Positions 16,823 through 20,819 of a stretch of 64,000 nt of DNA are shown one piece after another (the first letter of the stretch is position 1; each line of letters begins with the position of its first letter). The DNA lies in assembly GCA_016214145.1 (NCBI GenBank), contig JACRPA010000003.1, positions 186,001 through 250,000 on the forward strand, given 5' to 3'. The notes below the pieces were generated by a model. The model did no database searches and was not told where the DNA came from. It saw only the letters and a program-made list of their open reading frames with translations. The DNA is from Rhodocyclales bacterium (GTDB lineage Bacteria > Pseudomonadota > Gammaproteobacteria > Burkholderiales > Rhodocyclaceae). Made by a program: the position numbers and the translations under genes.

Positions 16823-17797
16823 ATGCACCTGACCCTGCGCCAGTTGAAGATCTTCGAGGCGGTGGCGCGCCACCTGTCTTTTTCGCGCGCCGCCGACGAA
16901 TTGCACCTGACCCAGCCGGCAGTCTCCATGCAGGTGCGCAGCCTGGAGGAGGCGGCCGGCCTGCCGCTCACCGAGCAGGTCGGCAAGCGGGTCTTCCTCA
17001 CCGAGGCCGGCAACGAACTGGCGCGCCACGCCCGCGTCATCGCCCAGCAGTTGCGCGAGGCCGAGGAGGCGCTCTCGGCGATGAAGGGGCTGCGCGGCGG
17101 GCGGCTCAACATCGGCGTGGTGTCCACCGCCAAGTATTTCGCGCCGCGCCTGCTCACGGCCTTTCGCACTGCACACCCGGAAGTCGAGCTGCGCCTCGGC
17201 GTGCACAACCGCGGCGCCATCGTGCAGCAGCTTGCCGACAACGAAATCGACCTCGCCATCATGGGGCGGCCGCCGCAGGAACTGGAGACGGTGTCGGAGC
17301 CCTTCGCCGAAAACCCGCTGGTCTTTGTCGCGGCACCGGATCATCCGCTGGCCGGGGCGAAGCGCATTGCGCCGAAGCAACTGGCCGAAGAGAGCTTCCT
17401 GCTGCGCGAGCCGGGTTCGGGCACGCGTGCTGCGATGGAGCGTTTCCTGACGGAAAACGGCGTGGTGCCGCAGCGCACGGTGGAGATGACCAGCAACGAG
17501 ACCATCAAACAGGCGGTGATGGCCGGCATGGGGATTTCCTTCATTTCGGAGCGCACCATCGCGCTCGAGCTGGCGACGGGCAATATCGCACGACTCAACG
17601 TGACGGGGACGCCGCTGAAGCGCCACTGGTACATTGTTCACCGCTCGGAGAAGCGCCTGCTGCCGGTGGCGGAGGCGTTTCGCCAGTTCCTGCTGCGGGA
17701 AAGCGGCGGGCTCGCCGAGCCGCCCGCGCCGATCACCGGCGCGAGCGGATCCAGTCGCGCCAGGCCGAAAAAAGCTGCGGGTCGACCGCGGCGATGA
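16823..17797 (+). CDS. cbbR: LysR-type regulator CbbR
   Basis: 324 aa, MHLTLRQLKIFEAVARHLSFSRAADELHLTQPAVSMQVRSLEEAAG; divergent from cbbM. Last ~19 codons lie in the duplicated IMPase 3' end. Confidence 0.92.
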   Translation: MHLTLRQLKIFEAVARHLSFSRAADELHLTQPAVSMQVRSLEEAAGLPLTEQVGKRVFLTEAGNELARHARVIAQQLREAEEALSAMKGLRGGRLNIGVVSTAKYFAPRLLTAFRTAHPEVELRLGVHNRGAIVQQLADNEIDLAIMGRPPQELETVSEPFAENPLVFVAAPDHPLAGAKRIAPKQLAEESFLLREPGSGTRAAMERFLTENGVVPQRTVEMTSNETIKQAVMAGMGISFISERTIALELATGNIARLNVTGTPLKRHWYIVHRSEKRLLPVAEAFRQFLLRESGGLAEPPAPITGASGSSRARPKKAAGRPRR

Positions 17798-17828
17798 CCG
17801 AGCGCTTCCACAGGTCGTCGGCGTCGAA
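17740..17828. repeat. Left copy of 89 bp perfect direct repeat (IMPase 3' end) flanking the RM insertion
   Basis: Identical to 20005-20093; match extends by TCG after one mismatch. Confidence 0.95.
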
Positions 17829-17866
17829 GTCGGTAAGGGGGTTGAGCAGATCGCAATCAAAAAGAA

Positions 17867-17895
17867 TTGACGTCTAGACGTCAGGCAGATAGTAT
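17867..17895 (+). promoter_or_regulatory. Probable promoter with 16 bp perfect palindrome upstream of the methyltransferase
   Basis: TTGACG-N17-TAGTAT; TGACGTCTAGACGTCA palindrome at 17868-17883 overlaps the -35. Confidence 0.6.
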
Positions 17896-17918
17896 CGGGT
17901 TGAACTCGATATGAAGCC

Positions 17919-19058
17919 TTGTCAGAGATGAGAAAACGCCCCGGAGAAGTACGAGACGCCATAGTGAGCGTTCTGAAAGCTCGCCCGCAGGGGGCGAGCG
18001 TTGCAGACATAACCCGGCAAGTTACGGCGCTCATTGGAGATGTTCCGTCTTCGTCGGTAAGGTCATATTTGCAATTGAACACCCCGCAGCTCTTCGCTCG
18101 GATGAATCGCGCCCAATATGTGCTGAACGGTTTTGGATACCAACCTGAACACTTCAGCGAAAAGCCGGCGAGCCGCTCAATTACCATCGGTAAGGCCACT
18201 CTGGTCCAGGACGATGGTCTTGCGTGGCTGGCGCGACAGCCGGCGCACTCCGTGCATGCGATCGTTACCGACCCGCCTTACGGCTTGGTGGAATACTCGG
18301 ACTTGGAGCAAAAGAAGTTACGGGCCGGTAAAGGTGGGGTTTGGAGGATGCCGCCTTCATTCGACGGCACTACGAGATCTCCCTTGCCCCGCTTCACGGT
18401 GCTAAAGCAGACCGACCTCGATGCACTCGAACAATTCTTTACCGAGTGGGCTGCGCGGGCGCTTCCGGTATTGGTGCCAGGTGCGAATGTCGTCGTGGCG
18501 AGCAACCCACTCCTGTCATACCTGATATCCGGCGCGCTGGCGCGTGCGGGGCTTGAGCGGCGGGGAGAGATCGTCCGATTGGTCATGACAATGCGCGGTG
18601 GTGACCGACCCAAGCACGCGCATGAAGAGTTTTCCGAGGTCAGTGTCATGCCGCGGTCCATGTGGGAGCCTTGGCTGGTATTCCGCAAACCCTTGGAGGG
18701 GCGTGTCCAGGACAACCTGCGGAAGTGGGGCACGGGTGGGTTTAGGCGGATTTCTGCGGATCGCCCGTTCGGTGACGTGATTGAATCCTCTCCAACGCGT
18801 CCCGCGGAGCGGGCGCTGGCACCCCACCCGAGCCTTAAGCCTCAAGCTTTTCTTCGACAACTTGTGCGGGGCGTGTTGCCGCTTGGAAAAGGCATCGTGT
18901 TGGATCCCTTTGCCGGTTCCGGTTCCACGTTGGCAGCTGCGGAGGCTACGGGATATGAAAGCGTCGGCATCGAGAAAGATGCCGCGTATTACGACGTGGC
19001 CGTCAAAGCGATACCGAAGTTGGCCAAACTACCGTCAATCAACGGCTATAGCCGGTAG
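17919..19058 (+). CDS. Site-specific DNA methyltransferase of a Type II RM system (TTG start, or ATG at 17928)
   Basis: TDPPYGL motif IV before DPFAGSGSTLAAAEATGYESVGIE motif I (beta-class order); extra N-terminal winged-helix-like region. Confidence 0.9.
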   Translation: MSEMRKRPGEVRDAIVSVLKARPQGASVADITRQVTALIGDVPSSSVRSYLQLNTPQLFARMNRAQYVLNGFGYQPEHFSEKPASRSITIGKATLVQDDGLAWLARQPAHSVHAIVTDPPYGLVEYSDLEQKKLRAGKGGVWRMPPSFDGTTRSPLPRFTVLKQTDLDALEQFFTEWAARALPVLVPGANVVVASNPLLSYLISGALARAGLERRGEIVRLVMTMRGGDRPKHAHEEFSEVSVMPRSMWEPWLVFRKPLEGRVQDNLRKWGTGGFRRISADRPFGDVIESSPTRPAERALAPHPSLKPQAFLRQLVRGVLPLGKGIVLDPFAGSGSTLAAAEATGYESVGIEKDAAYYDVAVKAIPKLAKLPSINGYSR

Positions 19059-19648
19059 ATCCAGCACCGTCGAAGTTTCGCGATTCCTTCGGCGTGAAGG
19101 GTGGCGGTCCTCGTGCCAAGTTCCCCCCGGGCGTTCTTGCGGAAATCGGCTATTTCAACTTTGCCCAAGTAAATTTCCGTAAATCGGAGCGGAGCCCGGT
19201 CGCTTGCGGGTTCGGAGGTGTTGTCGACTTCATAAACGAACACGCACATCCATTGATTGCGGGCACCGTGAGTGTCAACAGCCCCTCCCGCTTTGCGCGT
19301 AGTCTTGATTTCAATTCCTTGCTCGCCGGCCTTGACACTATTGCCGGGGTATTTGCCTTTGACGACGAGATCAGGGTGCCCGTTGAAGTAGCGATTCTCT
19401 GCCAATGAACGCGAATGCTTGGCGAGACTGGCTGTCAGCATATCGGACAACACGCCCGACATGATTGCAGGTCGAAGCATGTCGTCGAGGCGATCAAGTC
19501 CTTTCTCGACCAGACGGGAATTTACGTCAAAGAAGAAATCGTAAACATCCTGAATGGCGAGCTTGAAATCTTCAAGACGAAGTTCGTAGGGCAAGACCGC
19601 TGCCTTGTTGAGCCCCTCCGCAACAACTTGATTGCGAGTTACCGGCAT
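19046..19648 (-). CDS. Probable cognate restriction endonuclease, PD-(D/E)XK-like
   Basis: 200 aa; ...NGHPDLVVKGKYPGNSVKAGEQGIEIKTTRKAGG...; convergent overlap with the methyltransferase. Confidence 0.75.
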   Translation of the reverse strand: MPVTRNQVVAEGLNKAAVLPYELRLEDFKLAIQDVYDFFFDVNSRLVEKGLDRLDDMLRPAIMSGVLSDMLTASLAKHSRSLAENRYFNGHPDLVVKGKYPGNSVKAGEQGIEIKTTRKAGGAVDTHGARNQWMCVFVYEVDNTSEPASDRAPLRFTEIYLGKVEIADFRKNARGELGTRTATLHAEGIAKLRRCWIYRL

Positions 19649-19729
19649 GGTTGGGTTAGTCGAGCACTGGAAGAAACGCCAGGCCAGCTTCCCACCTTTC
19701 TCATGCCAGTGTCAAGGATAGACAATGCC

Positions 19730-20000
19730 TAGGGCGTGTTCTCATTCAATCTGTCGGATGCGTTGTGGCCAAAAGCGTCGACCGCTAGGCGCGCGACGCG
19801 GCCAAGGGTCATTCCCTTGGCGAGGAGCGCAACGACGCGGCCGGCGCTTTTGGCCACAACCCGAAGGGAACGGGTCTTTCCGGGCGCATGGCCGCGTTGC
19901 GGCGGCTCGCCGTAGAATAACTACTGTCTTCGCCGTCGCGCCTTGCCCTGCGCCCGGAAAGACCCGTTCGCACCGACAGATTGAATGAGAACACGCCCTA
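19730..20000. mobile_element. MITE-like non-autonomous element with 28 bp perfect terminal inverted repeats
   Basis: TAGGGCGTGTTCTCATTCAATCTGTCGG (19730-19757) and its exact reverse complement (19973-20000); flanking C-TA ... TA-G fits a TA duplication at CTAG; two long internal hairpins. Confidence 0.85.
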
Positions 20001-20819
20001 GCGCCGCGAGCGGATCCAGTCGCGCCAGGCCGAAAAAAGCTGCGGGTCGACCGCGGCGATGACCGAGCGCTTCCACAGGTCGTCGGCGTCGAAATCGTCG
20101 TGCTTCAGGGTGCACATGCGCCCGCCGGCTTCTTCCAGGATGAGGCGGCCGGCGGCGTAGTCCCACAGCTTCTGCCCGCCGTGCAGCAGCAGATCAAGCC
20201 GGCCGGCGGCGACGTAGGCCCATTCCAGCGTGCTGCAGCCGAAATTGCGCTGCGAGTAGTAGGGCGGCCGGGTGGCGAGGTCGTCGCCGAGTTTTTTCGG
20301 GATGCGCTTGAAGTCGACGCCGGCGACGCATTCCTTGAGGTTGGCCGCCGGCGGACGCAGGGGCAGTTTCAATCCGTTCATGGTGACGCCGCCGCCGCGC
20401 GAGGCGGCGAACATCTCCCGTGTGGCCGGGTCGTAGACCACGCCGACGACGGCGCGGCCCTCGATGAAATAGGCCACCGAGATGGCGAAGAAGGGCAGAC
20501 CGGCGACGAAGTTGGTCGTGCCGTCGATGGGGTCGACTATCCACAGGCCCTCGCCGCCTTCGTTCCACAGCCGGCGCTGCTCGGCCTCGCCCATTTCCTC
20601 CTCGCCCAGCAGCGGACGCGGGCGCAGCCTTTGCAGCCGCTCGGCGAGCGCATGCTGGGCGGCGATATCGACTTCGGTGAAGATGCTGCCGTCGGCCTTG
20701 TGCTCGCGCACCACCTGCAGGTAGCGCGGCATCACCACCTGCGCGGCGACTTCGCGCACCACCTGGGTGACCGCTGCGCACAACTCGTAGCAGGCAGAGC
20801 TCAAGGCGTGTCCTTCCAT
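19998..20819 (-). CDS. Inositol monophosphatase family protein
   Basis: MEGHALSSACYELCAAVTQVVREVAAQVV...; WIVDPIDGTTNFVAGLPFFAISVAYF motif; ends ...DWIRSRR*. Confidence 0.9.
   Translation of the reverse strand: MEGHALSSACYELCAAVTQVVREVAAQVVMPRYLQVVREHKADGSIFTEVDIAAQHALAERLQRLRPRPLLGEEEMGEAEQRRLWNEGGEGLWIVDPIDGTTNFVAGLPFFAISVAYFIEGRAVVGVVYDPATREMFAASRGGGVTMNGLKLPLRPPAANLKECVAGVDFKRIPKKLGDDLATRPPYYSQRNFGCSTLEWAYVAAGRLDLLLHGGQKLWDYAAGRLILEEAGGRMCTLKHDDFDADDLWKRSVIAAVDPQLFSAWRDWIRSRR
20005..20093. repeat. Right copy of the 89 bp direct repeat, inside the IMPase 3' end
   Basis: Identical to 17740-17828. Confidence 0.95.

Follow-up and report, generated by a model that had tools for sequence, protein, structure and literature searches.

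A restriction-modification cassette inserted at the 3' end of an inositol monophosphatase gene in a Rhodocyclales bacterium, between gene-end copies that differ only at synonymous sites

We describe a Type II restriction-modification (RM) cassette in a Rhodocyclales bacterium (assembly GCA_016214145.1, contig JACRPA010000003.1, positions 186,001 to 250,000; this 64,000-nucleotide stretch is hereafter the window). The cassette lies between cbbR, which encodes a LysR-type regulator, and an inositol monophosphatase-family gene (IMPase), and it is bordered on both sides by a copy of the IMPase 3' end. We find a single copy of this gene end in all congeners in which it could be read. The two copies in the window differ only at synonymous sites, and this pattern points to the import of a gene end. 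We consider it reasonably probable that the cassette was acquired horizontally together with an incoming IMPase end, and that recombination displaced the native end to the far side.

A duplicated gene end and its empty site

The direct repeat spans 17737-17832 and 20002-20097 (96 nt, 98% identity), and 89 nt of it are identical in a row (17740-17828 and 20005-20093). A preliminary description, made from the sequence alone, had recognized the identical segments as the IMPase 3' end, and the codon-register reading agrees. In register, the repeat covers 99 nt (17733-17831, hereafter R1, and 19998-20096, hereafter R2), which are the last 33 codons of IMPase and terminate exactly at the stop. Either copy translates as DFDADDLWKRSVIAAVDPQLFSAWRDWIRSRR-stop, again as first described. 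Four codons differ between R1 and R2, and all four differences are synonymous in IMPase, the stop (TGA in R1, TAG in R2) counted among them. R2 is in current use by the intact IMPase gene. R1 is detached from any IMPase gene, yet still provides the end of cbbR, whose stop (17797) falls within it. No further copies of the IMPase tail were found elsewhere in the genome, and there are no tRNA genes in the window.

Assembly programs can go wrong at direct repeats. We nevertheless regard an assembly artefact at this repeat as scarcely credible. The 99-nt repeat is short, the contig around it is 397 kb long in an assembly of 12 contigs, the copies of the repeat differ in haplotype, and the arrangement recurs at other genes in independent assemblies.

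The preliminary description had asked whether relatives that lack the RM genes have an empty site in which the tails of cbbR and IMPase overlap, and they do. Fifteen congeners were searched, several with incomplete assemblies, and the IMPase 3' end was readable in 14 of them (L010-L023, from genomes G001-G013 and G015); G014, in which the IMPase match ends at residue 131, was left out. The gene end is single-copy in 14 of 14, so that none of them carries two copies without the RM genes, an arrangement that would have spoken against insertion. In 13 of the 14, IMPase has cbbR as its tail-to-tail neighbor. Eight congeners have an overlap of exactly 65 nt, and two others have overlaps of 4 and 38 nt; the overlap was not scored in three, where the IMPase stop was unparsed. 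The cassette nuclease is absent from all 15 congeners, and the methyltransferase gave nothing beyond distant matches in them. Thus, the RM cassette is an insertion between cbbR and IMPase.

The duplication (99 nt) is longer than the overlap (65 nt), and cbbR and IMPase therefore both stay whole. Gene overlap, which demands at least 65 nt, might by itself account for the length of the duplication, with no need of a special enzyme. Selection would have kept a duplication longer than the overlap, since a shorter one would truncate cbbR or IMPase.

Two alleles of one gene end

The two gene ends bear different haplotypes. R2 opens with CTAGCGCCGCG, which is the form of the stop in most congeners (L010, L013, L017, L018, and others), and the same holds for its CTAGCGCC end. 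R1 reads TCACCGGCG, and its C17736 is shared only with L014 (genome G006), which is the nearest relative of the window in cbbR (about 92%). R1 is no longer translated as IMPase, though all its codon differences from R2 are synonymous (p=0.003; 0.019 under a lenient model). Differences of this kind in a copy not translated as IMPase fit two separately evolved alleles better than they fit a duplicate that later decayed. Taken with the two stop-end haplotypes, they suggest that R2 is probably a foreign-type incoming end spliced onto the gene and R1 the displaced native end, and that this is not a fresh target duplication. The preliminary description had assigned the two copies in the same way, and it gains support from the foreign-type stop haplotype of R2 and from C17736 in R1.

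One alternative is a classical RM insertion with long target duplication, in which about 100 bp would have been copied locally at staggered or displaced ends, and the differences between copies would be later mutations. The length is in line with PMC3874152, where RM units are described with duplications of the order of 100 bp, 89 nt are identical between the copies, and one other locus of the same RM family (L044) has a 123-bp repeat of 97% identity that is not an evident gene end. Local copying does not predict, however, that every difference should be synonymous in IMPase, that the two ends should bear two haplotypes present among congeners, or that two further loci (L064 and L097, below) should show the same synonymous excess. 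We therefore judge it unlikely. The preliminary description had pointed to long target duplications of RM units; this remains the right class of events, but on-the-spot copying fits poorly with copies that differ like alleles.

A second alternative places the cassette in the common ancestor with G006. The cbbR-side end would then have changed, after which G006 would have lost the cassette between the repeats and kept the changed end. Recombination between the repeats does leave a single copy with the left end, as in L014, and L014 is the nearest relative in cbbR. This account nonetheless needs one more loss event, and it does not explain why a copy untranslated as IMPase should have changed at synonymous sites only; moreover, G006 is 53% complete and not very close. 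We consider it improbable.

Import of a gene end, the explanation that we favor, would proceed as follows. Horizontal transfer brought a two-gene Type II RM cassette in between the tail-to-tail overlapping cbbR and IMPase, on DNA that, to judge from the haplotypes and the synonymous differences, may already have borne the IMPase 3' end of another lineage. Recombination within the IMPase 3' region would have joined the incoming end to the resident gene, and the resident's last 33 codons would have ended up beyond the cassette, still serving as the end of cbbR. The likeliest agent would be general recombination of the host, which would make a dedicated recombinase unnecessary. Entry could have been by single-crossover integration of a circle with one copy of the gene end, or by homology-facilitated illegitimate recombination of a linear fragment, with one homologous side and one random join; the data do not separate these two routes.

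The cassette and its family

Each component of the cassette named in the preliminary description (a methyltransferase, a convergent nuclease, and a miniature inverted-repeat transposable element, or MITE) was recovered at the IMPase 3' end, from a domain match, a convergent open reading frame (ORF), and inverted ends, respectively (Table 1). The first gene encodes an N6/N4 methylase-domain DNA methyltransferase (PF01555, E=4e-17; PADLOC MTase_II, E=3e-114), as in Type II RM systems. Its ORF opens with TTG at 17919, and family alignments start at about ATG 17928. The adjoining gene is a candidate for the cognate endonuclease by context and by modeled fold. This convergent 200-aa gene is kept beside the methyltransferase in most family loci, and the PD...ExK motif is invariant in its family. 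Its structural model (pLDDT 92.6) has EcoRV and NaeI as nearest folds, with weak Foldseek scores (best E=1.1e-3). The nuclease has no Pfam, NCBIfam, or PADLOC match.

Table 1. Features of the cassette and its flanks, in window positions.
Feature	Position	Strand	Basis or remark
cbbR, LysR-type regulator	16823..17797	+	ORF; NCBIfam CbbR and Pfam LysR matches; shares its final 65 nt with R1
R1, displaced IMPase 3' end, 33 codons, TGA stop	17733..17831	-	Repeat and congener alignment
Methyltransferase promoter	TTGACG 17867-17872, TAGTAT 17890-17895		Read by eye
GACGTCTAGACGTC, candidate operator over the methyltransferase promoter	17869..17882	.	GACGTC-N2-GACGTC common to family loci
Type II DNA methyltransferase (N6_N4_Mtase)	17928..19058	+	ORF, PF01555, PADLOC
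Candidate cognate restriction endonuclease, PD-(D/E)XK fold	19046..19648	-	Convergent ORF; P92 D93 ... E113 x K115 invariant
MITE, 29-bp perfect inverted ends, CTAG at both ends	19729..20001	.	At the IMPase stop
R2, 3' end in current use by IMPase, 33 codons, TAG stop	19998..20096	-	Stop-end haplotype of most congeners
Intact inositol monophosphatase-family gene (IMPase)	19998..20819	-	Domain search and congener matches

The right-hand TAG stop sits in a CTAG that is common to the end of the 273-bp MITE. CTAG is also the IMPase stop context in most congeners, which suggests that the CTAG at the IMPase stop probably predates the MITE and received it, either before or after the transfer. Three near-complete relatives of the MITE (81-91%) occur elsewhere in the genome. 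CTAG is rare in the window, with 13 occurrences in 64 kb versus about 62 expected, and the one at the MITE end is the IMPase stop.

We gathered 80 loci of the same methyltransferase (61-84% identity) from many phyla. The sequence GACGTC-N2-GACGTC lies just upstream of the methyltransferase in 83 of the 83 loci analysed (85 matches in 832 kb), where it typically overlies a -35/-10 pair. It is likely an autoregulatory operator of the RM system, and perhaps the methyltransferase itself binds it. GACGTC was also considered as the RM target site and rejected, because it is not specially avoided; hence we call the sequence an operator only.

The same convergent RM pair occurs on small mobilizable ColE1-type plasmids of Enterobacteria, and plasmids are thus one route of its spread. 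Among the carriers are a Citrobacter freundii plasmid (L181, 4938 bp) and Klebsiella relatives, and the plasmid-borne nuclease is annotated merely as a hypothetical protein. We considered a 2150-bp Raoultella record as a free circular form of the cassette and rejected this reading, since the record proved linear and a ColE1-type plasmid encodes both of its proteins.

In 76 usable family loci, the window included, we compared the two flanks of the cassette, one preceding the methyltransferase and the other following the nuclease, and did the same for 208 control regions of equal spacing. Strong direct repeats border the cassette in 6 of the 76 loci versus 1 of the 208 controls (p=0.0017). They measure 123 bp (L044), 96 bp (the window), about 100 bp (L097), 66 bp (L112), 63 bp (L052), and 53 bp (L064). 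The L044 repeat lies at 181-303 and 2410-2532 of its locus (97%). Rfam gave no match for the L044 and window loci. Nitrospira members of the family have no edge repeats. A stop-anchored search for weaker gene-end repeats in the other family loci recovered already-known loci only, and a translated search was abandoned because Arg/Pro-rich spurious frames swamped it.

In the window, L064, and L097, homology terminates at a stop codon. The L064 repeat is the 3' end of a DAHP synthase gene, with the intact gene on the methyltransferase side and an orphan end beyond the nuclease; six of the seven changed codons are synonymous, and the stops are TAA and TAG. In a relative (L185), the DAHP synthase gene is close to an ACT-domain gene that is found further right in L064, which supports the L064 insertion site. 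L097 (446-6374) holds three copies of a NiFe-hydrogenase 3' end, in the order short fragment, RM pair, 90-codon fragment, PIN-domain gene region, and full hydrogenase gene. Changes in its 90-codon middle fragment are mostly synonymous (12/16), and the array gives the impression of two successive cassette insertions at one gene end. Pooled over four loci (the window, L064, L052, and the middle fragment of L097), the excess of synonymous changes yields p=5e-9 when tested against random change; when only the intact copy is taken to be under selection, p=9e-5. The four were picked after their repeats were seen to be coding, and these values describe those four and not the whole family.

Several observations weigh against the import of a gene end. 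Within the window, only four codons differ, all close to the ends of the repeat, and the identical 89-nt center calls for either a closely related donor or gene conversion at a later stage. We found no donor strain. The polymorphism at the far end is reversed, with A at 20094 as in L014 and G at 17829 as in most congeners, although this site varies freely in the genus and carries little weight. An attempt to place the crossover from the IMPase identity profile was too noisy to use, as identity between the window and its relatives is about 90% throughout. In the wider family, 70 of the 76 loci have no detectable repeat, the left fragment of L097 lacks a synonymous excess (2/5), and the L052 repeat is internal to an M20 peptidase gene, with a weak excess (5/9). 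Neither the L044 nor the L112 repeat is an evident gene end.

Import into the IMPase gene end remains the account that we prefer for the window. Its extension to the whole family is more tentative: the RM family may possibly constitute an integrase-free integrative element that carries a captured gene 3' end, enters new hosts by homologous recombination at this end, makes the gene whole again, and can build up arrays there together with other selfish cassettes (e.g., the PIN-domain region of L097).

Comparison with known systems

Some integrase elements, of which e14 in icd is an example, rebuild the 3' end of the gene that they target. The cassette is similar in that the insert would supply a gene end and the original end would lie on the far side, and the preliminary description had drawn this parallel; the likeness extends to outward anatomy only. 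In principle, a site-specific recombinase acting in trans could direct the cassette into gene 3' ends, in the manner of integrase elements that target icd or tRNA genes, and the restored gene, the displaced end beyond the insert, and the L097 array all resemble such elements. We find no recombinase between the repeats, as first described, and none in the cassette, integrases elsewhere in the genome not having been searched for. The six repeats share no att core and no target motif, their lengths range from 53 to 123 bp, and the many target genes are unrelated. A dedicated integrase is unlikely because the cassette contains none and the repeats have no common core, and we consider the action of one in trans very improbable.

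Displaced 3' ends are also known from Rhs and type VI secretion system effector loci, where homology-facilitated illegitimate recombination has been invoked for arrays (PMC5361080). PMC3240628 describes this process in competent species and, at low frequency, in E. coli. In the Rhs and effector loci, as proposed here, a new module is spliced on by a 3' region, the old 3' part remains downstream, and successive events form arrays such as that of L097. In those loci, however, the toxic end and the immunity gene change, whereas in the window the protein end is unchanged and the payload is an unrelated RM pair.

It has long been asked how small RM and toxin cassettes that lack a recombinase get into chromosomes and leave the genes there whole, and such entry is usually labeled insertion with long target duplication. 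The synonymous-difference test separates duplication on the spot from import of a foreign gene end, and it can be applied to any set of RM insertions. It predicts where cassettes could land, namely, at gene 3' ends common to the donor. It also offers a possible reason for the survival of duplications of about 100 bp, which have to be longer than the gene overlaps.

RM units that insert with target duplications on the order of 100 bp are known (PMC3874152, PMC3031569, PMC1643837, PMC4978471), with Nobusato et al. 2000 and Furuta et al. 2010 cited for them in PMC3874152, PMC3031569, and PMC1643837. The window matches that class: a recombinase-free RM unit lies between direct repeats of about 100 bp, and relatives without the unit have a single copy. 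It differs in that its copies diverge as alleles do, at synonymous sites only, and in that homology ends at a stop codon. The window is thus a new instance, in an RM family whose insertions we did not find described. RM insertion with duplications of about 100 bp was already known; the allelic, stop-anchored pattern is what is new.

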